Shown here: piece by piece, positions 1-35,335 of the stretch
Numbering within the stretch: the stretch's first letter is position 1
Layout: every line of letters starts with the position of its first letter
Assembly: GCA_011033025.1 (NCBI GenBank)
Contig: WFMF01000006.1
Coordinates: 558,001-622,000 of the forward strand
Reading direction: 5' to 3'
From: Beroe forskalii
Lineage: Eukaryota; Ctenophora; Nuda; Beroida; Beroidae
DNA length: 64,000 nt
Translations under genes and position numbers: made by a program
Notes under the pieces: model-generated
Seen by the model: only the letters and a program-made list of their open reading frames with translations
Told to the model about the DNA's origin: nothing
Database searches by the model: none

Positions 1-3000
1 CAGGACTCACCAGTCAACAGGTGATAACTCCGCGCAGGACTCACCAGTCACCAGGTGATAACTCCGCACAGGACTCACCAGTCACCAGGTGATAACTCCG
101 CGCAGGACTCACCAGTCACCAGGTGATAACTCCGCGCAGGACTCACCACTCACCAGGTGATGACTCCGCGCAGGACTCACCAGTCACCAGGTGATAACTC
201 CACGCAGGACTCACCAGTCACCAGGTGATAACTCCGCGCAGGACTCACTAGTCACCAGGTGATAGCCCCGGCAGGACTCACCAGTCACCCGGTGATAACT
301 CCGCAAAGGACTCACCAGTCACCGGGTGATAGCTCCGCGCAGGACTCACCAGTCACCAGGTGATAACTTCGCGCAGTACTCACCAGTCACCAGGTGATAA
401 CTCTGCGCAGAACTCACCAGTCACCAGGTGATAACTCCGCGCACGACTCACCAGTCACCAGGTGATAGCTCCGTGCAGGACTCACCAGTCTCCAGGTGAT
501 AGCCCCGCGCAGGACTCACCAGTCTCCAGGTGATAACTCCGCTCAGGACTCACCAGTCACCAGGTGATAACTCTGCGCAGTACTCACCAGTCACCAGGTG
601 ATAAATCCGCGCAGGACTCACCAGTCACCAGGTGATAACTCCGCTCAGGACTAACCAGTAACCAGTCACCAGGTGATAGCTCCGCGCAGGACTCACCAGT
701 CACCAGGTGATAACTCTGCGCAGGACTCACCAGTCACCAGGTGATAACTCCGCTCAGGACTCACCAGTCACCAGGTGATAACTCCGCACAGGACTCACCA
801 GTCACCAGGCGATAGCTCCGCGCAGGACTCACCAGTCACCAGGTGATTACTCCGCACAGGACTCACCATTCACCAGGTGATAGCTCCGCGCAGGACTCAC
901 CAGTCACCAGGTGATAACTCCGCGCAGGACTCACCAGTCACCAGGTGATAACTCCGTGCATGACTCACCAGTCACCAGGTGATAACTCTGCGCAGGACTC
1001 ACCAGTCACCAGGTGATAACTTCGCACAGGACTCACCAGTCATCAGGTGATAACTCCGCACAGGACTCACCAGTCACCAGGTGATAACTCCGCGCAGGAC
1101 TCACCAGTCACCAGATGATAACTCCGCGCAGGACTCACCAGTCACCAGGTGATAGCTCCGCGCAGGACTCACCAGTCACCAGGTGATAACTCCGCGCAGT
1201 ACTCACCAGTCACCAGGTGATAACTCCGCGCAGAACTCACCAGTCACCAGGTGATAACTCCGCGCACGACTCACCAGTCACCAGGTGATAGCTCCGCGCA
1301 GGACTCACCAGTCTCCAGGTGATAGCCCGCGCAGGACTCACCAGTATCCAGGTGATAACTCCGCTCAGGACTCACCAGTCACCAGGTGATAACTCCGCGC
1401 AGTACTCACCAGTCACCAGGTGATAACTCTGCGCAGAACTCACCAGTCACCAGGTGATAAATCCGCGCAGCACTCACCAGTCACCAGGTGATAACTCCGC
1501 TCAGGACTAACCAGTAACCAGTCACCAGGTGATAGCTCCGCGCAGGACTCACCAGTCACCAGGTGATAACTCTGCGCAGGACTCACCAGTCACCAGGTGA
1601 TAACTCCGCTCAGGACTCACCAGTCACCAGGTGATAACTCTGCGCAGGACTCACCAGTCACCAAGTGGTAACTCCGCTCAGGACTCACCAGTCACCAGGT
1701 GATAACTCCGCACAGGACTCACCAGTCACCAGGCGATAGCTCCGCGCAGGACTCACCAGTCACCAGGTGATTACTCCGCACAGGACTCACCATTCACCAG
1801 GTGATAGCTCCGCGCAGGACTCACCAGTCACCAGGTGATAACTCCACTGGGACTCACCAGTCACCAGGTGATAACTCCGCGCAGGACTCACCATTCACCA
1901 GGTGATAACTCCGCGCAGGACTCACCAGTCACCAGGTGATAACTCCGCACAGGACTCACCAGTCACCAGGTGATAACTCCGCACAGGACTCACCAGTCAC
2001 CAGGTGATAACTCCGCGCAGGACTCACCAGTCACCAGGTGATAACTCCGCGCAGGACTCACCAGGTGATAACTCCGCGCAGGACTCACCAGTCACCAGGT
2101 GATAACTCCGCACAGGACTCACCAGTCACCAGGTGATAACTCCGCGCAGGACTCACCATTCACCAGGTGATAACTCCGCGCAGGACTCACCAGTCACCAG
2201 GTGATAACTCCGCACAGGACTCACCAGTCACCAGGTGATAACTCCGCACAGGACTCACCAGTCACCAGGTGATAACTCCGCGCAGGACTCACCAGTCACC
2301 AGGTGATAACTCCGCGCAGGACTCACCAGTCACCAGGTGATAACTCCTCGCAGGACTCACCAGTCACCAGATAACTCCTCGCAGGACTCACCAGTCACCA
2401 GGTGATAACTCCGCGCAGGACTCACCAGTCACCAGGTGATAACTCCACGCAGGACTCACCAGTCACCAGGTGATAACTCCGCGCAGGACTCACCAGTCAC
2501 CAGGTGATAACTCCGCGCAGTACTCACCAGTCACCAGGTTATAACTCCGCGCAGGACTCACCAGTCACCTGGTGATAACTCCGCACAGGACTCACCAGTC
2601 ACGAGGTGATAACTCCGCGCAGGACTCACCAGTCACCAGGTGATAACTCCGCGCAGGACTCACCAGTCACCAGGTGATAACTCCGCGCAGGACTCACCAG
2701 TCACCAGGTGATAACTCCGCGCAGGACTCACCAGTCAACAGGTGATAACCCCGCGCAGGACTCACCAGTCACCAGGTGATAACTCCGCACAGGACTCACC
2801 AGTCACCAGGTGATAACTCCGCGCAGGACTCACCAGTCACCAGGTGATAACTCCGCGCAGGACTCACCACTCACCAGGTGATGACTCCGCGCAGGACTCA
2901 CCAGTCACCAGGTGATAACTCCACGCAGGACTCACCAGTCACCAGGTGATAACTCCGCGCAGGACTCACTAGTCACCAGGTGATAGCCCCGGCAGGACTC

Positions 3001-4560
3001 ACCAGTGACCCGGTGATAACTCCGCAAAGGACTCACCAGTCACCGGGTGATAGCTCCGCGCAGGACTCACCAGTCACCAGGTGATAACTTCGCGCAGTAC
3101 TCACCAGTCACCAGGTGATAACTCTGCGCAGAACTCACCAGTCACCAGGTGATAACTCCGCGCACGACTCACCAGTCACCAGGTGATAGCTCCGTGCAGG
3201 ACTCACCAGTCTCCAGGTGATAGCCCCGCGCAGGACTCACCAGTCTCCAGGTGATAACTCCGCTCAAGACTCACCAGTCACCAGGTGATAACTCCGCGCA
3301 GTACTCACCAGTCACCAGGTGATAACTCTGCGCAGAACTCACCAGTCACCAGGTGATAAATCCGCGCAGGACTCACCAGTCACCAGGTGATAACTCCGCT
3401 CAGGACTAACCAGTAACCAGTCACCAGGTGATAGCTCCGCGCAGGACTCACCAGTCACCAGGTGATAACTCTGCGCAGGACTCACCAGTCACCAGGTGAT
3501 AACTCCGCTCAGGACTCACCAGTCACCAGGTGATAACTCCGCACAGGACTCACCAGTCACCAGGCGATAGCTCCGCGCAGGACTCACCAGTCACCAGGTG
3601 ATTACTCGCACAGGACTCACCATTCACCAGGTGATAGCTCCGCGCAGGACTCACCAGTCACCAGGTGATAACTCCGCGCAGGACTCACCAGTCACCAGGT
3701 GATAACTCCGTGCATGACTCACCAGTCACCAGGTGATAACTCTGCGCAGGACTCACCAGTCACCAGGTGATAACTTCGCACAGGACTCACCAGTCATCAG
3801 GTGATAACTCCGCACAGGACTCACCAGTCACCAGGTGATAACTCCGCGCAGGACTCACCAGTCACCAGATGATAACTCCGCGCAGGACTCACCAGTCACC
3901 AGGTGATAGCTCCGCGCAGGACTCACCAGTCACCAGGTGATAACTCCGCGCAGTACTCACCAGTCACCAGGTGATAACTCCGCGCAGAACTCACCAGTCA
4001 CCAGGTGATAACTCCGCGCACGACTCACCAGTCACCAGGTGATAGCTCCGCGCAGGACTCACCAGTCTCCAGGTGATAGCCCCGCGCAGGACTCACCAGT
4101 CTCCAGGTGATAACTCCGCTCAGGACTCACCAGTCACCAGGTGATAACTCCGCGCAGTACTCACCAGTCACCAGGTGATAACTCTGCGCAGAACTCACCA
4201 GTCACCAGGTGATAAATCCGCGCAGCACTCACCAGTCACCAGGTGATAACTCCGCTCAGGACTAACCAGTAACCAGTCACCAGGTGATAGCTCCGCGCAG
4301 GACTCACCAGTCACCAGGTGATAACTCTGCGCAGGACTCACCAGTCACCAGGTGATAACTCCGCTCAGGACTCACCAGTCACCAGGTGATAACTCCGCAC
4401 AGGACTCACCAGTCACCAGGCGATAGCTCCGCGCAGGACTCACCAGTCACCAGGTGATTACTCCGCACAGGACTCACCATTCACCAGGTGATAGCTCCGC
4501 GCAGGACTCACCAGTCACCAGGTGATAACTCCGCGCAGGACTCACCAGTCACCAGGTGAT
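1..4560. repeat. Higher-order repeat of about 2.75 kb within the satellite
   Basis: The variant unit CAGGACTAACCAGTAACCAG occurs at 646, 1502, 3401 and 4257. Spacings are 856, 1899 and 856 bases, so the 646/1502 pair recurs 2755 bases later. The runs of variants around these markers also recur in the same order, for example the AGTACT/AGAACT/CACGACT series at about 375-480 and 3095-3180. The unit at position 1 with CAGTCAACAG reappears at 2722, an offset of 2721, one unit short of 2755. This shows a block duplication plus a single-unit gain or loss. Confidence 0.85.
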
Positions 4561-5415
4561 AACTCCGCGCAGGACTCACCAGTCACCAGGTGATAACTCC
4601 GCACAGGACTCATCAGTCACCAGGTGATAACTCCGCGCAGGACTCACCATTCACCAGGTGATAACTCCGCGCAGGACTCACCAGTCACCAGGTGATAACT
4701 CCGCACAGGACTCACCAGTCACCAGGTGATTACTCCGCACAGGACTCACCAGTCACCAGGTGATAACTCCGCACAGGACTCACCAGTCACCAGGTGATAA
4801 CTCCGCGCAGGACTCACCAGGTGATAACTCCGCGCAGGACTCACCAGTCACCAGGTGATAACTCCGCACAGGACTCACCAGTCACCAGGTGATAACTCCG
4901 CGCAGGACTCACCATTCACCAGGTGATAACTCCGCGCAGGACTCACCAGTCACCAGGTGATAACTCCGCACAGGACTCACCAGTCACCAGGTGATAACTC
5001 CGCACAGGACTCACCAGTCACCAGGTGATAACTCCGCGCAGGACTCACCAGTCACCAGGTGATAACTCCGCGCAGGACTCACCAGGTGATAACTCCGCGC
5101 AGGACTCACCAGTCACCAGGTGATAACTCCGCACAGGACTCACCAGTCACCAGGTGATAACTCCGCGCAGGACTCACCAGTCACCAGGTGATAACTCCGC
5201 GCAGGTCTCACCAGTCACCAGGTGATAACTCCGCGCAGGACTCACCAGTCACCAAGTGATGACTCCGCGCATGACTCACCAGTCACCAGGTGATAACTCC
5301 GCGCAGGACTCACCAGTCACCAGTTGATAACTCCGCGCAGGACTCACCAGTCACCAGGTGATAACTCCGCGCAGGACTCACCAGTCACCAGGTGGTAACT
5401 CCGCGCAGGACTCAC
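1..5415. repeat. 34-bp satellite array (about 155-160 units)
   Basis: Near-continuous head-to-tail copies of a 34-bp unit. Core motifs on the plus strand are CAGGACTCACCAGTCACCAG followed by GTGATAACTCCGCG. Units vary by point changes (CGCG/CACA/CTCA; AACTCC/AGCTCC/AACTCT), and a few are shortened, for example near 2058, 2370, 4815 and 5085. Each unit contains the E-box CAGGTG and the near-palindrome TCACCAGGTGA. On the minus strand each unit carries CTGGTGAGT, a strong 5' splice-donor match. The array ends exactly at the donor of the cathepsin exon at 5416-5554, so it probably lies in that gene's intron. There are no unique spacers between units, so it is not a CRISPR array. Confidence 0.97.
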
Positions 5416-5554
5416 CAGGTCGCTGAACTTGTTGATTTCCAGGAAGTAGTCTGAGTGTTGGAAGAGGTTGTGTTTCTTCACTTCATTAAACCTTTTCTTG
5501 AACACCCGGTACCGCTCCCTCTCCTCAAGGCCCTGGTAATGCCGGCCGAACTCC
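5416..5554 (-). CDS. Orphan exon of a cathepsin L-like cysteine protease (I29 propeptide)
   Basis: Read on the minus strand, this 139-base exon gives 46 codons beginning EFGRHYQGLEERERYRVF and ending LEINKFSDL. It contains the I29 propeptide hallmarks: an ERFNIN-type helix (E-x3-R-x3-F, then V-x3-N), although the central Asn is Arg here, and an N-x-F-x-D box (NKFSD). In papain-family C1A proteases this prodomain keeps the zymogen inactive until lysosomal processing. The acceptor is CCCCGCAG/G just above 5554 and the donor is CTG/GTGAGT just below 5416. The exon enters in phase 2 and leaves in phase 0. No signal-peptide exon is visible upstream (at higher coordinates), and the catalytic exons would lie beyond the satellite, outside the window. 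It could be one exon of a live gene with a satellite-filled intron, or a relic. Confidence 0.72.
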
Positions 5555-5564
5555 CTGCGGGGTC

Positions 5565-5692
5565 ACGAGGTTTAAGAGTCACGAGGTTTCAGGGTCACGT
5601 GGTATTAGAGTCACGAGGTTTTAGGGTCACGTGGTTTACATGTCATGTGGTTTAGTAGTCACGTGGTTTAATAAGTGTCGTGTGGTTTTAGT
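5565..5692. repeat. Degenerate short tandem repeat (about 17-18 bp)
   Basis: Roughly seven loose copies of GTCACGAGGTTTTAG / GTCACGTGGTTTA follow the cathepsin exon. They lie just upstream of its splice acceptor on the minus strand, so they probably fall in the preceding intron. Confidence 0.7.
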
Positions 5693-8273
5693 TCCATCTT
5701 GATTGGTCTGACTTAATGTTTCTGCTTTTTGGATACCTCTACACTCCAAAATACATTATAGGCCATTTAGCCATTACCTGAGCGGTTCAATTATCTCATT
5801 GTGGTTTAAGCCCTCGGTCTTCGATTTGCGGTTCTAAACTGGATACACCCCCTCGGGCCACGCCCTCTCGATTTATCCCAAAAATATGGAACCTATGTCC
5901 CGATACCAGTGGAGATCTATGTATGTTGTAGAAACATAGGTATAGTATCACCATAACGTAATCGGGCCTCATCAAGTTGGTGTTACAAACTACACCAATT
6001 AATTGGGGCCCAGGCAATTATTTAGGGTTATTCAGGGTTAGAGGACTTGAGGTAAACTCATGTACATGAAGCACTTCAATTAGTTGGAATACACAGTCCC
6101 TTAAATGGTGTACAACCTTTTAATATTATTTCAATATACGGTCACATATTGAAAGATTGAACCTGATTGAAGTAATACATGAAATTGGATGTAGCGCACC
6201 CACATACGCAGAATAATGTGGGCATGGGTCATGCAACATGAGTACAGAATGCTGAGGTCCAATATCCATCAATTTTAGTACATTCGTTTGGAACGTAAAG
6301 GTTGTCTGTAGGTGAATGATTTGGGCAGTAGCCAGCAACAGATTTAACTTTCCCTAAGGTCCTAGAAACTACCGCTTCACTTTCATTGTAAATCAACTCA
6401 AATTTAGTTAGTGCTTCACTTTTTAGCCGCTTTATTTTGTTGTTTTAAACCCATTATCTACTCACGATTCGAATTCTCTGAAGAGTTTCCTGGCATCGGT
6501 GTTTGTAGAGTCGAGGAGCTGGATCGCGTGGAGAAGGCTACTCGTGTGCCACAAAATTAACAAAACAAACATGTCCGGCCCAAAAGAGTAAACTATATAG
6601 ACGGTGCGAGTTCTTACAAATAGTAGTAAAATTAGAAGAGGGTACTGTGTACGTCAATAATATTAACTTTATTAAACGTACTGAAAGGAGGGGGTGCTGA
6701 ATCGTAACTCGAGTTTCGATTTAATGTTTCTAATTATTAATATAACAAGGTGTAGTATACTGCTCACATGGCGAGAGAGAAGGGAGGTTTATTAATCTAA
6801 AGCAAACATCTGCAGTAACTCCAACTATTGTCTAAACTTTACACTCACGTAGAAGGGTGGCAGCAGCCCTATTAGCTAAACAGATAACATTCGATGATGA
6901 CACATATTTATACGCTGCTATTCTCCCTTTCGTGTAAGGTTGGAATTATCAAAACATGGAGACTTATAGAAAGAGGGGCAGCTACTTTATTGTTCTTATT
7001 GAAACTCGAATGTTCTTTATGTTCGCTCCGATCATGTCAGTCACAAATGAATTGAGTGAATAAACAATAGACACCTAGCACTCGGAAGTTTCTAGCCCCG
7101 AAGGTAGCCTACTCCTTCATAAATTACACATGTTTTAGGTCACGCCCAACTTTTTCGACAATGAAATCGACAGTTTATAAAAAGTGTATGCTGATCAACA
7201 TTCGACCGTGCCCACTTCTGTACCATTCTCATAACAGGTGGTGTTTATCATACTATTATTGTCACACTTGGGCTGCCTTGGGCACCATGTCTATGAAACA
7301 TGTCTACGCGGGCAATATGATGATGATGCAATAATGACGCTTTCTCTTCTCCAATAGAAGGGAGATAATGTGAGCATTGCGCAATATGTAAAAAGCTGCA
7401 ACTACCACCAACCGACTGGACAGCACTCCCCAATGAAAGGGAGAGTGATGTGTTACATTGGTTTAGAAGTAGGACTTGATGAAGTCACACCGCTTTCAGG
7501 TCGAGTACAATCGGGGAACTCCCATATGAGATAACTGACAATAGGCCCTACAAAACGACTGGGAGTGGTAGCAAATACCAGCGCCCTTTATCGTTTTGTT
7601 TTCTCCAGATGCATGCTCACGAACAAAATGAATACCTTTTTGCCCCCCATTATGCTCATCATGTTGGTCCTTACTAAGAACGAAATCTACTTACAAATTT
7701 TTCTTAAAACAAGACTGGTTAGCGTGAGGCCTGATAGAATCGATTTTATGAATTAAGAGTTCAGATTTTTCATCGGTAAGCTTACACTTACAGTAACATA
7801 AGTAAAAAATTATACAAAATTAAAAGAAAACGATTAAATTATTGGGCTGGTATCCATATATGAAGTAAAAACTATGAAAACGCTGGAATGGAGATATGAA
7901 TGATCTTCGCAGTTTTCAAGGTGTTCCTATTGGTTCCGCATATTTGCAAGTACTTAACCGCAAATTTAGCCATGTCTCAGCAGCCACTGTATTTTGAATA
8001 GTCGCTGATTTATTTTCCTGTTTCCCTTCATGCAATAAAACTTACAACGTTTTCCGCTGCCACTCCCTCTACTTACACAGTGATCGTGGGATATTTTTGA
8101 TGTCATAAGCCTGAGTCTTATACATGCGTCTGCCCGAAAGATTTATCAGCTGCAAAACTAATAGCGAGCCTGTACTTGTAGGACCAGTGATTAGTTTTTA
8201 TACACAACTACAACCCTTGCTCCCCTGCAGGGTGGAGGCCAAAGGTGGTTTTAATCTAACAAATCCTGTCCCT
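5693..8273. other. Unassigned AT-rich sequence
   Basis: I see no exon with family similarity, no RNA gene and no clear repeat. All open stretches on either strand are under about 75 codons and lack convincing splice contexts. This region would hold the 5' exons of the minus-strand cathepsin gene if that gene is intact, but I could not find a signal-peptide exon. Confidence 0.5.
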
Positions 8274-8439
8274 ACATACATACATACATACATACATACA
8301 TACATACATACATACATACATACATACATACATACATACATACATACATACATACATACATACATACATACATACATACATACATACATACATACATACA
8401 TACATACATACATACATACATACATACATACATACATAC
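8274..8439. repeat. Tetranucleotide microsatellite (CATA)n
   Basis: About 41 perfect copies of ACAT/CATA, with the first break at CGTAC near 8440. The long open frames on both strands here (THIYTYIH-like and MYVCMYVC-like) are just translations of the microsatellite. Confidence 0.98.
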
Positions 8440-10596
8440 GTACATATCTACTTATATCAAGTACCTACTCCTATTCAGGCATACTTCTGCTCTTACAGTC
8501 TACATTTTACTAAATCGGGCGTGATACGTCATAATAAAGTCATAAGATAAGGGCGTTTGCAGTTTTGGATGTCAAATTAACCATTCGCTAGCATAATGTT
8601 ATCGATGTTGAAATCACATTTCAAGTTTTTCACGACAACTACCAAGTCATCAAATCGCAATGAATACGCTCGGATGTTTTCAAAAGCACAAAGTAGAAGT
8701 GACAGCCGATGCTTCAAGTTCTTAATTATGCTACTTAATTAGGGTAATTTCTTGGCTACCAGATATCGCGATCCCCACACCAGCTGAGAATTTAGAATCA
8801 AATAACGGCGAACTTATCTAGAATTTTCTTACACCACGTTCTTATACTGACAAGGAAATTCCTAAATTCGTGATGTCTCCTAATCAAAAGTACACAAAAC
8901 AATGTGAATTATTTTTGGACCATTGGCAATTTGTCCCGCAAACACATGTTCGGCTTATTTAACAAATATTTCACTTTTTGGCTGCAACACATGCACGACA
9001 TTCTAATTGCAGGCTGGAATATCATCATCCAGACAGCTTATTATTTAAAAAGGATAAAAGGATAATGAATTACAGGAAGCCAGATACGAGATAACCTATA
9101 GGGGACCGGATATCATGACTTTTGCTTTTTCCACATACCGAACTTGGGACAGATTCGGTAATTGCGTAGTTAGGAGGAAATAAGTTCAAGCTATTAGAAA
9201 ATAATTCCTTATCCGGGAAGAAATTCCGATCATTGTCATTGATTGTTATATTCACAGTGCCTCACTGTTAAAAGTAGTTAAAACATAGTGTTAATATTGG
9301 GAGAAGTCCCAAAATATCTTCCCTTTCACACGTTCAGGACGTGAGTACCTTGTGAATTGTAATGCGTTGGCCTAAGCATGTGGAGCCAGAAGTACCATAT
9401 TAGAGTAATAGGTAAACAGCCTCAAAAACATATGACTTTTTTAAAAATAATAGAGGATTTTTGTATCCTGGACCTTTTGCTCACCTCAATTGGTGATTTG
9501 AACGGATTGAAGACTTCACTCTAAAGTCTTAACAGCCTGTTCTCAACTGTACCACCTCCATTTCTGCAGACTGTTTCTATACCACACTGAATAGAATTGG
9601 CTGTGAGTTCTGTATACATCCATTCCATTAGTGGTTTTAACAATGAGTAATTTATACCACCCCCTGAAACAAGAAGGGTTGGTTTATCATATTAATTAAC
9701 ATGGTATGTGGACTAACAAACTCTAGCCAAGAATTAATTATTGTTTCCAGCACTTACCTCATGTTTGGCTTCATGAGACGAGGCTCTTTGTGTCTGTGCT
9801 CCATTAGTGTATCTTTTCAAGAGTGTACATTGATCTATTTCTTCTGCTGCATAGTGCTATAGTGCATACCCAGTCTATCAGCTGTTCACAAGGACCTTGT
9901 GAACACACAGTGACCTTGTGCGACAAGGGCCTTGTGAACACACAGTGATCTTGTGCGACAAGGGCCTAGTCTAAAGATCAATGTGTGTCCCTTGTTCACC
10001 ACCTCACTGGACCATACCCCTTCTTCCCCTTTATAGAACGTAACTTTTGGACATAGGTCCTTGCTGCTGACTATGATCCATGCTTCCACATGTTCCCATA
10101 TTAATTGTTGTTAATATATTAGCATGATAATTGGGCATCTGTTGTTGCATAAGATAGACAAATTACTGTTGTTGTGTTTCCAAATTTAGACCACCCTAAC
10201 TCTCAAGCGTCGAGACTTTGGCAGTATCCTAGGACCTAGACTTTCTGCCAAGTTTAAGTTTAAGACACCTGCTTTGCACTTCTCTAATAAAGAACTTACT
10301 CAGTAACTCATTAATATTCGAGGGTACCATGTGTTTGACAATATGGCATTTCTGAAGCCCCTAGCAGTACTACATGACATTAGAGTAAGTGTGTGGGGGC
10401 TAGGTTTACGTGCTGACGCCCAACCGCAGCGGAACATAATATGATGTTTTTATCAATGAAGCGATGCAATGTGCTGGGCTTGGTTATGGAAAATTTAAAA
10501 TAAGGCACTAATGCAATTTTAATTTATGCCATGTGTATATGTGTGAAGTAGAAATAAGAAATTTTAAATTGGGTAAATTGCCAGTCATGGTTTTTA
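8440..10596. other. Unassigned AT-rich sequence before the duplication
   Basis: No coding exon recognised. The only structure is the short 35-bp duplication at 9895-9964. Sequence similarity to copy B of the large duplication starts at about 10597. Confidence 0.5.
9895..9964. repeat. 35-bp tandem duplication
   Basis: Two copies of a 35-bp unit starting CCTTGTGAACACACAGTGA, at 9895 and 9930, with one clear substitution (GACC versus GATC). Confidence 0.85.
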
Positions 10597-25800: not shown

Positions 25801-28800
25801 ACTGATAATTTCTCATTAGATGTCATTTTTCAGGAATTGAGCTTCAAGGAAAAACTATTGGTATAATAGGGCTGGGTAGGATTGGCATGATAGTTGCTCA
25901 TCGAATGCAGTCATTTGGTATGACTACAGTTGGCTATGATCCCATTGTGCCTAAAACTGTAGCTGAGGAGAATGACATTGGATTTATGGAACTGGAAGAT
26001 ATGTGGCCAGTTTGTGATTTCATCACAATCCATGTGCCTCTATTACCATCCACCAAACATTTGATTAACAGAGATGTCCTAAAAAGGTGTAAGAAGGGAG
26101 TAAGAATAGTAAACTGTGCTCGTGGAGGTAAGCAATAAACATATCCTTGTCTTCCTTACCTAAATCATTATCAAAGTTTTAACTTGTTGAAATTAAAATC
26201 TTTGATGTGCTGTGTAATGGTTTCCAAATAAGTGAGTACATCTGTGTTTATAGCGATATCATGAAATTTGCCACCAAGTACAACCTCACAGCTTAAACCA
26301 CCCAGGTATTATTGATGAGGATGCCTTGTTGGACAGCTTGAACAGTGGTGATGTGGCTTGTGCAGCTCTGGATGTCTTCGAGCAGGAGCCACCCCAAACA
26401 GACTCACCACTCCTCCAACATTCCAACCTCATTGCTACCCCACATCTTGGTACTGATTGATGTTTACTGACTAATGTTTACTGATTAATGTTTACCTTCT
26501 TGTTGAATAATGTGTACCATCTTCTTGATTAATGTTTACCATCTTGATACTGAGTAATGTGTACCATAAATGTGTTTCATGATGTGTCAGGCATGGATCC
26601 ACGGGGGCGTGCTGGGGGCGTGCGCACGCCCCCAAACAAAAATTTGGGGGCGTGCTCTGGGCGTGCAATTCAAAGATTTCAAACTAAAGCATCATTAGAA
26701 TTTAAAATACCACTGAGAACATCAGATGCTGCAGTAATTGTCTCCACGGACAAGCTTTACATGAACTGAATTATTGGTTTGGAGACATAAAAGTATCAAT
26801 TGAATGGGAATACGCTATTGTTGTCACTTCTTCACTTGTTTCTTCCAAAACTGTTTCTTCCCAAACTCTGGCTTTCTGGGGCTGCCGCCCTCAGAGTCTG
26901 AGGGCTCAGACCCCTGCTGTTCATTTGATTAACAATATTAAATTTATTGAAATTGAGTGCGACATTATCGATCGTGCTGTTGAAATGAAAACATTGCAAA
27001 ACCCTATTGAGCTATTGCGGTGACAACAGTCATGTCTTACTCCAGACATATGGCTTCTGGAGGCTGCCACCCCAGACCGCTGCTGTTCTTTATTCCTGGT
27101 GATTGGTAATATATTTAGTGAAATAATGTACGACAAAATCGACGGAGCTGTTGAAAATTGACATGAAAACAATGCAAAAACTCTATTGAGGTGACATTTC
27201 TTTCAATTCCAGACCTCTGGCTTCTGGGGGCTGCCGCCCCCAGACCCCTGCTGTTCTTTCTTTCTTTTGATTGTGAATATAACAAGTGAAATTGAGTACG
27301 ACTACAACGATGAAGCTGTTGAGATGAAAACAATGCAAAAACTTTATTGATTTGACATTTCTTTAAAATCCATACCTCTGGCTTCTGGGGGCTGCCGCAC
27401 CCAGACCCCTGCTGTTCTTTCGTTCTTTTGATTGTGAATATATTTAGTAAAATTGAGTACGACTACAACAATGAAGCTGTTGAGATGAAAACAATGCAAA
27501 AACCCTATTGAGATGACATTTCTTTACATTCCAGACCTCTGGCTTCTGGGGCTGCCGCCCCAGACCCCTGCTGTTCTTTCTTTTCTTTTGATTGTGAATA
27601 TAATAAGTGAAATTGAGTTCGACTACAACGATGAAGCTGTTGAGATAAAAACAATGCAAAAACCCTATTGAGATGACATTTCTTTACATTCCAGACCTCT
27701 GGCTTCTGGGGGCTGCCGCCCCCAGGCCCCTGCTGTTCTTTCTTTTGATTGTGAATATAATAAGTGAAATTGAGTTCGACTACAACGATGAAGCTGTTGA
27801 GATGAAAACAATGCAAAAACTTTATTGATTTGACATTTCTTTAAAATCCATACCTCTGGCTTCTGGGGGCTGCCACCCAGACCCTGCTGTTCTTTCGTTC
27901 TTTTGATTGTGAATATATTTAGTAAAATTGAGTACGACTACAACAATGAAGCTGTTGAGATGAAAACAATGCAAAAACCCTATTGAGATGACATTTCTTT
28001 ACATTCCAGACCTCTGGCTTCTGGGGGCTGCCGCCCCCAGACCCCTGCTGTTCTTTCTTTCTTTTGATTGTGAATATAATAAGTGAAATTGAGTTCGACT
28101 ACAACGATGAAGCTGTTGAGATAAAAACAATGCAAAAACCCTATTGAGATGACATTTCTTTACATTCCAGACCTCTGGCTATAGGGGCCGCCGCCCCAGG
28201 CCCCTGCTGTTCTTTCTTTCTTTTGATTGTGAATATAATAAGTGAAATTGAGTTCGACTACAACGATGAAGCTGTTGAGATGAAAACAATGCAAAAACCC
28301 TATTGAGATGACGTTTCTTTACATTCCAGACCTCTGACTTCTGGGGGCTGCCGCCCCCAGGCCCCTGCTGTTCTTTCTTTCTTTTGATTGTGAATATAAT
28401 AAGTGAAATTGAGTTCGACTACAACGATGAAGCTGTTGAGATGAAAACAATGCAAAAACCCTATTGAGATGACACTTCTTTACATTCCAGACCTCTGGCT
28501 TCTGGGGGCTGCCGCCCCCAGGCCCCTGCTAGTGCAAATACATACTTGAATTATCTTTATTTTCGAAAAACGCACTTACTGCGAATGAGGCGCCGCGAAG
28601 CGGCGTCGAATGAGCTCAAATTTGCACGCCCCCAAAAATTCTGGGCTGGATCCATGCCTGTGATGTGTGGAAGTTGATAATCCAATAATTACTTCTTGAA
28701 CCTAAAGCTATCTTACCTTTTTTCTATAATATCTTCAAAGTATTTCAGTATTACAATCAATGTATCTTTGAGGCCTTGGCTTCTGCTGTTGGGTAATACA

Positions 28801-34680: not shown

Positions 34681-35335
34681 AAAGGAGCTCCTTATCCACC
34701 TGAAGCACTCTCCTTGGTCCTGGGTCACGTTTGTTTCATGGGACCCCTCCCCTTTGATTTTGGGACAGACTCCTTGATCCTGGGACATTCTCCTTGATCC
34801 TACATGACAAACTCTTTGATCTTGGAACACTATCCTTGATTCTGGAAAACTCTCCTTGATCCTGAACACACTTCTTGACCCTGAGACATGCTCCTTGATC
34901 CTGGGACGCTCTTCTTTATTCTTAGACACACTCCTTGACCTTGGGACAAACTCCTTGGTCCTGGGGCAGATTCCTTGATCCTGGGACACTCATCTTAAAC
35001 CAGGAACACACTTATTTATTCTGGGATACCCGGAAACAAACTCCTTGGTACTGGGGAAGATTCCTTGATCCTGGGACATTCTCTTTGATCCTGAGGCACT
35101 CCTAGATACTGGAACACTCTCCTTGATCCTGAGACACTCTGCTTGATCCTGAGGACTTACCTTGATCTTGGGACACATTTGATGTTCATGGGACACTCTC
35201 CTTGATTTTGCGACAGACTCCTTGATCCTGGGACATTCTCCTTGATCCTGGGACATTCTCCTTGATCCTACATGACAAACTCTTTGATCTTGGTAAAAAC
35301 TCCTTTATCTATCCTTGATTCTGGAAAACCCCCTT
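34681..35335. repeat. 18-bp minisatellite abutting the copy-B breakpoint
   Basis: About 30 variable copies of CTCCTTGATCCTGGGACA. The array stops at about 35335, exactly where copy B of the duplication begins. Minus-strand open frames (SQDQGICP-like) are translations of the repeat. Confidence 0.9.

Follow-up and report, generated by a model that had tools for sequence, protein, structure and literature searches.

A minisatellite that opens at the 5′ splice site of a cathepsin exon in Beroe forskalii: anatomy and likely origin from the donor

Introduction

The closest described system to the locus reported here is the variable number tandem repeat (VNTR) in intron 18 of human ABCA7. In the excerpts used of its description (PMC5954066), a 25-bp repeat adjoins exon 18 and its first two bases are the GT of the exon-18 donor; alleles have 12 to about 427 units, or 298 to 10678 bp. 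According to the same excerpts, canonical splicing persists, some transcripts use the donor one unit down, and longer VNTRs go with more skipping of exon 19 and with lower expression (PMC5954066). Two further reports, also drawn on in excerpt, concern repeats at exon-intron boundaries. In human segmental duplications, internal tandem repeats with ~30-bp units at such boundaries change splicing (PMC2812944), and a tandem duplication across an exon-intron boundary can create introns (PMC4974935). Here a 34-bp minisatellite is described that opens at the donor of a cathepsin propeptide (I29) exon in the ctenophore Beroe forskalii. It lies at one end of a stretch of 64,000 nucleotides (C691:558001-622000), hereafter the window, and was first remarked upon in an earlier note made from the letters of the window alone.

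Judged by its sequence, the cathepsin array is of the ABCA7 kind, a donor-anchored intronic VNTR. As in the parts of PMC5954066 referred to above, the minisatellite lies directly beside an exon, the array opens with that exon's donor, and the unit length is not divisible by three, with the result that use of a decoy donor shifts the frame. The size of the cathepsin array (225 units, 7.6 kb) also falls inside the allele range given there for ABCA7. The two differ in unit length (34 bp vs 25 bp), gene and organism, and whereas the ABCA7 repeat is known, in those same parts of PMC5954066, from RNA and population data, the cathepsin array is known from the sequence of one assembly. The repeats of the PMC2812944 excerpt share with it a minisatellite of ~30-bp units at an exon-intron boundary, but they are short (about 4 units on average) and belong to young paralogues, unlike the 225 units found here in one gene and in an older intron. 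As in the PMC4974935 excerpt, a boundary-spanning tandem duplication copies splice signals; there, however, the duplication makes a new intron, whereas the position of the cathepsin intron is shared with a paralogue on contig C614.

Results

The array and its register with the exon junction

The 34-bp unit, GTGAGTCCTGCGCGGAGTTATCACCTGGTGACTG, was followed on the minus strand with Tandem Repeats Finder (TRF) and by unit alignment across window 1..5415 and on to C691:555793 (L009:6793). TRF gives 159.4 copies at window 1-5418 and a further 65.2 copies in the 2.2 kb of array that lie outside the window edge to the left; by TRF edges the whole array is C691:555793-563418, 7626 bp. Aligned unit by unit it consists of 225 units, 210 of them gap-free and 14 with internal gaps, the last being partial. 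Unit 1 begins at the exon junction, window 5416|5415, where the exon end reads GACCTG|GTGAGTCCTGCG. Thus the start of the satellite exactly at the donor of the cathepsin exon, as the earlier note had it, is upheld. The far end of the array tapers through the partial unit GTGAGTCCTGCGCGGAATAATCGCC, which could be the natural continuation of the ancestral intron start.

The authentic 5′ splice site, CTG|GTGAGT (window 5410..5418, minus strand, from the sequence and the unit alignment), is repeated throughout the array. Counting the authentic donor in, 198 of the 225 unit starts carry the 9-mer intact, a count in which five units with an extra heptamer are misaligned; the alignment was mended for the analysis of change events described below. 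Over the array, 22 bases of the exon and 92 bases of the left flank, the GTGAGT hexamer is found 218 times, authentic donor included; the remaining 58.4 kb of the window has it 25 times on the two strands together. More than 100 decoy donors in one intron had been claimed, and the intact unit starts bear this out. It had also been claimed that a 15-mer, CTGGTGAGTCCTGCG, lies in nearly every unit; its exact copies number only 122, i.e., about half of the 225 units.

The unit was sought in the whole assembly (216 Mb, 1134 contigs). Every one of the 122 exact copies of the 15-mer is on the minus strand and inside the array; for the 34-mer, allowing up to 3 mismatches, there are 211 matches, none of them outside the array locus. 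A dispersed satellite family is ruled out by this confinement and, to the extent that the assembly is complete, so is the arrival of a ready-made array from another of its loci. The search of the genome for the unit away from this exon, which the earlier note had put forward as a check, thus returned no other copy.

The host gene

The I29 exon (window 5416..5554, minus strand, 139 nt) was recognized by its match to PF08246, its translation, EFGRHYQGLEERERYRVFKKRFNEVKKHNLFQHSDYFLEINKFSDL, and its junctions. It has the acceptor CCCCGCAG|G and the donor GACCTG|GTGAGT, and ends in frame (...FLEINKFSDL|). The PF08246 match lies at C691:563416-563556 (E 1.1e-7); a scan with the exon peptide gives E 3.3e-10 and 40.6 bits, which passes the cut-off of 24.4. 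Beyond the array, to the left of base 1, where the earlier note had proposed to look for the next exon, the papain active-site exon is found at C691:553340-553423 (PF00112, 37.9 bits vs a cut-off of 20.7), bordered by the acceptor CAATCAG| and the donor |GTAAGT. The intron between the two exons is about 10 kb long. Thus, as read from these exon matches, the array is intronic and sits between two coding exons of a cathepsin gene.

The C614 paralogue has no 34-bp array, but the codon boundary at which its I29 exon ends is the same one (...AMNHLGDL|GTAAGT). The intron thus appears to predate the array. Creation of the intron by the array, considered as a candidate, is ruled out by the shared position. 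Peptidase C1 genes are numerous in the assembly, with at least 153 matches; among the matches listed, most are in long single open frames. One of them, L020, has a cysteine-rich tail that presumably resembles ShK domains.

A partial duplicate and the state of the gene

A partial cathepsin duplicate on contig C110 (L040:7442-9000 and L041:1-1151) shares 2.6 kb with the gene, up to C691:554337. Besides the active-site exon it has a later C1 exon (TPQELLDC...) and one for the Asn region (HSWGEDWG...); the His region is matched only at E 0.35. In the 36 kb that were searched, no I29 exon was found. The similarity ends 8 bases before a 27-bp minisatellite which lies in the same ~10-kb intron of C691 (L009:5345-6016, C691:554345-555016). 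The duplicate was therefore rejected as an outgroup for the array, of which it stops short.

By tblastn, no His- or Asn-region exons were found in C691:522001-553340, the best Asn-region match having E 1.0 on the opposite strand. In the stretch C691:551220-553170 (L009:2220-4170), 31% of the bases are in runs of at least 4. The corresponding figure is 10% for the window, whose highest tile reaches 21.5%, and 4% for the counterpart on C110, to which the stretch is 72-78% similar with many gaps. Because of this homopolymer excess, the damage in C691:551220-553170 looks like poor consensus, and the stretch is probably that or a bad join. The 3′ half of the gene falls where sequence is of low quality or absent.

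A DNA search of the assembly with window 5417-6900, which takes in the exon and the sequence upstream of it, detected no second copy of the I29 exon, only two matches of ~62 bases.

Composition and growth of the array

The 34-bp unit is made up of 20 bp and two heptamers CTGGTGA, with one or three heptamers in a few units. Runs of 1, 2 and 3 heptamers (CTGGTGA or CTGGTTA) number 51, 166 and 5, many of the runs of 1 being pairs with one mutated member. The exon junction holds exactly one heptamer, CTG|GTGA. The same unit types reappear 81, 41 and 25 units apart, and thus long blocks were duplicated over distances of up to about 2.75 kb.

Changes in the units were counted on a minimum spanning tree of 47 gap-free unit types, from which 15 gapped units are excluded. 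There are 54 changes, 4 of them in the donor hexamer vs 9.5 expected. The P value of this deficit is 0.028 in a binomial test, 0.023 by permutation of columns and 0.033 with the CpG columns removed, so that conservation of the donor hexamer by selection is suggestive at most.

At the RNA level, the 239 nt of array proximal to the exon fold better than shuffled sequences (z -5.3). In the first 700 nt, the predicted accessibility of 19 decoy donors is 0.22-0.32 vs 0.26 for the authentic donor, and in a model array of 18 units the donors are as accessible as when the unit middle is shuffled (16 of 40 shuffles as low or lower). Self-masking of the donors by RNA pairing was therefore dropped as a candidate.

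Donor-bearing arrays elsewhere in the genome

Patterns of three GGTRAGT motifs with 15-45-nt gaps have 6340 matches in the assembly vs 6196 for the backwards pattern, and the AGGTRAGT version 1543 vs 2931; these are counts of matches rather than of separate arrays, and large arrays dominate them. Neither match count shows an excess of donor-bearing arrays over the backwards control in the whole assembly. Minisatellites, taken as repeats with a period of at least 9 and at least 2.5 copies, cover 5.45, 9.32, 15.58 and 6.18% of four sequence sets; these sets were not randomly drawn, and some loci of the fourth overlap.

The 30 GGTRAGT loci listed include six clusters, and TRF was run on one locus of each (L047, L049, L051, L052, L053 and L063); L049, L052 and L053 were read for exons. 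Two of these three have a donor-spanning duplication beside a likely exon. At L052 (L052:1435-1625) a 46-bp unit follows an exon, weakly similar to AUR1 (E 0.0029) and with no Pfam match, whose reading frame runs on into the next exon. At L053 (L053:2645-2776) a 50-bp unit, present in 2.6 copies, is composed of the last 21 nt of an exon, the donor and 29 bases of the intron. The L053 exon is cullin-like, with a Pfam match of E 3.3e-4 that is below the cut-off and matches to cullin-2 chains at E 0.011 and weaker. The third locus, L049, appears, by reading only, to be a coding repeat of 33-bp units that stays in frame, each unit containing a donor-like motif.

A separate case is present at L041:4286-4455, where a 57-bp unit containing the tail of an exon together with a donor and an acceptor is repeated three times after the last exon of a gene of the F5/8-type-C kind. 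The joined exons of that gene match PF22633 above the cut-off over residues 22-85; the last exon alone matches nothing.

Other tandem arrays

On its other side the I29 exon adjoins a 16-bp minisatellite of about 7 copies in the upstream intron (window 5562..5671, minus strand, from TRF and the sequence). It is unrelated to the 34-bp array and stops 7 bases from the acceptor; thus the exon is flanked by two unrelated arrays. Further tandem arrays of the window are at 27041-28530 (a 161-bp unit in 9 copies), 34761-35269 (a 20-bp unit in 25 copies) and 8273-8446 (TACA, 43 copies).

Discussion

The reading favored here, with a probability of about 0.72, is that of an intronic minisatellite anchored on the 5′ splice site, which grew from the donor by neutral duplication and is mostly a passenger. 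Starting from the observed anatomy and location of the array, its single occurrence in the assembly and the intron position of the paralogue, we infer the following order of events, donor in use and effect on expression. A short start of the pre-existing cathepsin intron, donor first, would have been duplicated in tandem, and amplification would have followed, with the heptamer CTG|GTGA slipping and long blocks being exchanged. The I29 exon, being coding, would have been kept out of the duplication. Of the donors, the exon-proximal one is probably still used most, because it is adjacent to the exon. If a decoy were used, the mRNA would be longer by 34 nt or a multiple of it, usually with a frameshift, and in-frame read-on would stop after 23 codons. 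The array would then be mostly tolerated, and its growth may lower splicing efficiency or expression, as is reported for the ABCA7 repeat.

Several observations weigh against this reading. The exon matches the end of the unit by only 3 bases (CTG), and a junction-anchored comparison of 12 bases is not significant, since 11% of other exon positions score equally. Thus an intronic seed just inside the donor, which reached the donor later, is possible. The donor hexamer has fewer changes than a pure passenger predicts, at the nominal P of 0.023-0.033. In addition, the searches with the 34-mer and with the exon DNA, and the C110 duplicate that stops short, provided no outgroup for the start of the intron. 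Of the proposal in the earlier note that the satellite grew from the 5′ splice site itself, the start at the donor, the intronic location and the uniqueness of the unit stand. Neither finding that the note had named as a refutation, wide occurrence of the unit away from this exon or a lack of cathepsin exons past the array, was obtained; growth from the splice site thus reads best, but with only 3 exon bases shared it is unproven.

Two of the alternatives to the favored reading assign the array no role. The gene may be a silenced copy in which the array grew after constraint was lost. The His and Asn catalytic exons that the tblastn search of C691:522001-553340 did not find point this way, as does the next exon, which is disrupted in the assembly (partial match, E 4.8e-4). 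However, the I29 exon and the active-site exon are both open and canonical, and the disrupted stretch is the homopolymer-rich one. Silencing is considered unlikely. Alternatively, an ordinary intronic minisatellite may have reached the donor by chance, with its edge set by selection against repeats in the exon. Minisatellites are common in the four sequence sets (5.5 to 15.6%, with 2.6 to 4.4 arrays per 10 kb), one adjoins the other side of the same exon, and the 3 shared exon bases are few. But a chance arrival would have to account for a unit in register with the junction, a donor carried in 198 of the 225 units and the lack of copies elsewhere in the assembly, and it is considered quite unlikely.

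The remaining alternatives give the donors a function, and the earlier note had suggested one in which U1 binding to the array marks, delays or shelters the transcript. In such a decoy array the U1 small nuclear ribonucleoprotein (snRNP) would be held, splicing would be delayed or the 10-kb intron shielded from early polyadenylation, and the donors would be under selection. The 218 hexamers and the largely intact CTG|GTGAGT are in keeping with this, and of all six-column stretches in the unit the donor core G|GTGAG has the fewest events, 3. AATAAA or ATTAAA is found 0 times in the array and 4 times in the other 2.4 kb of the intron, but this absence is a consequence of the unit sequence. The conservation has a P of about 0.03 on 54 inferred events and is only nominal, donor arrays are not enriched in the genome, and the authentic donor and the 19 decoys are equal in predicted accessibility. 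A functional decoy array is therefore very doubtful, and the suggested role of U1 was not sustained. A broader version, in which tandem duplications that start at or span a donor recur in many genes and grow to hundreds of donors weakly selected for holding U1 snRNP, the cathepsin array being one of them, is highly improbable.

The observation of a donor-anchored array is thus confirmed on the sequence, and its origin from the donor is likely, a function being unproven. With ~200 near-identical strong donors beside one exon, mostly 34 nt apart, the locus is a natural experiment on the choice of the 5′ splice site, in which the rule among equal donors might be proximity to the exon, the order of transcription or chance. 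The array also suggests that the kind of repeat linked to disease in ABCA7 is not confined to human, and the short donor-spanning duplications in at least two other genes of the same genome may be early stages.

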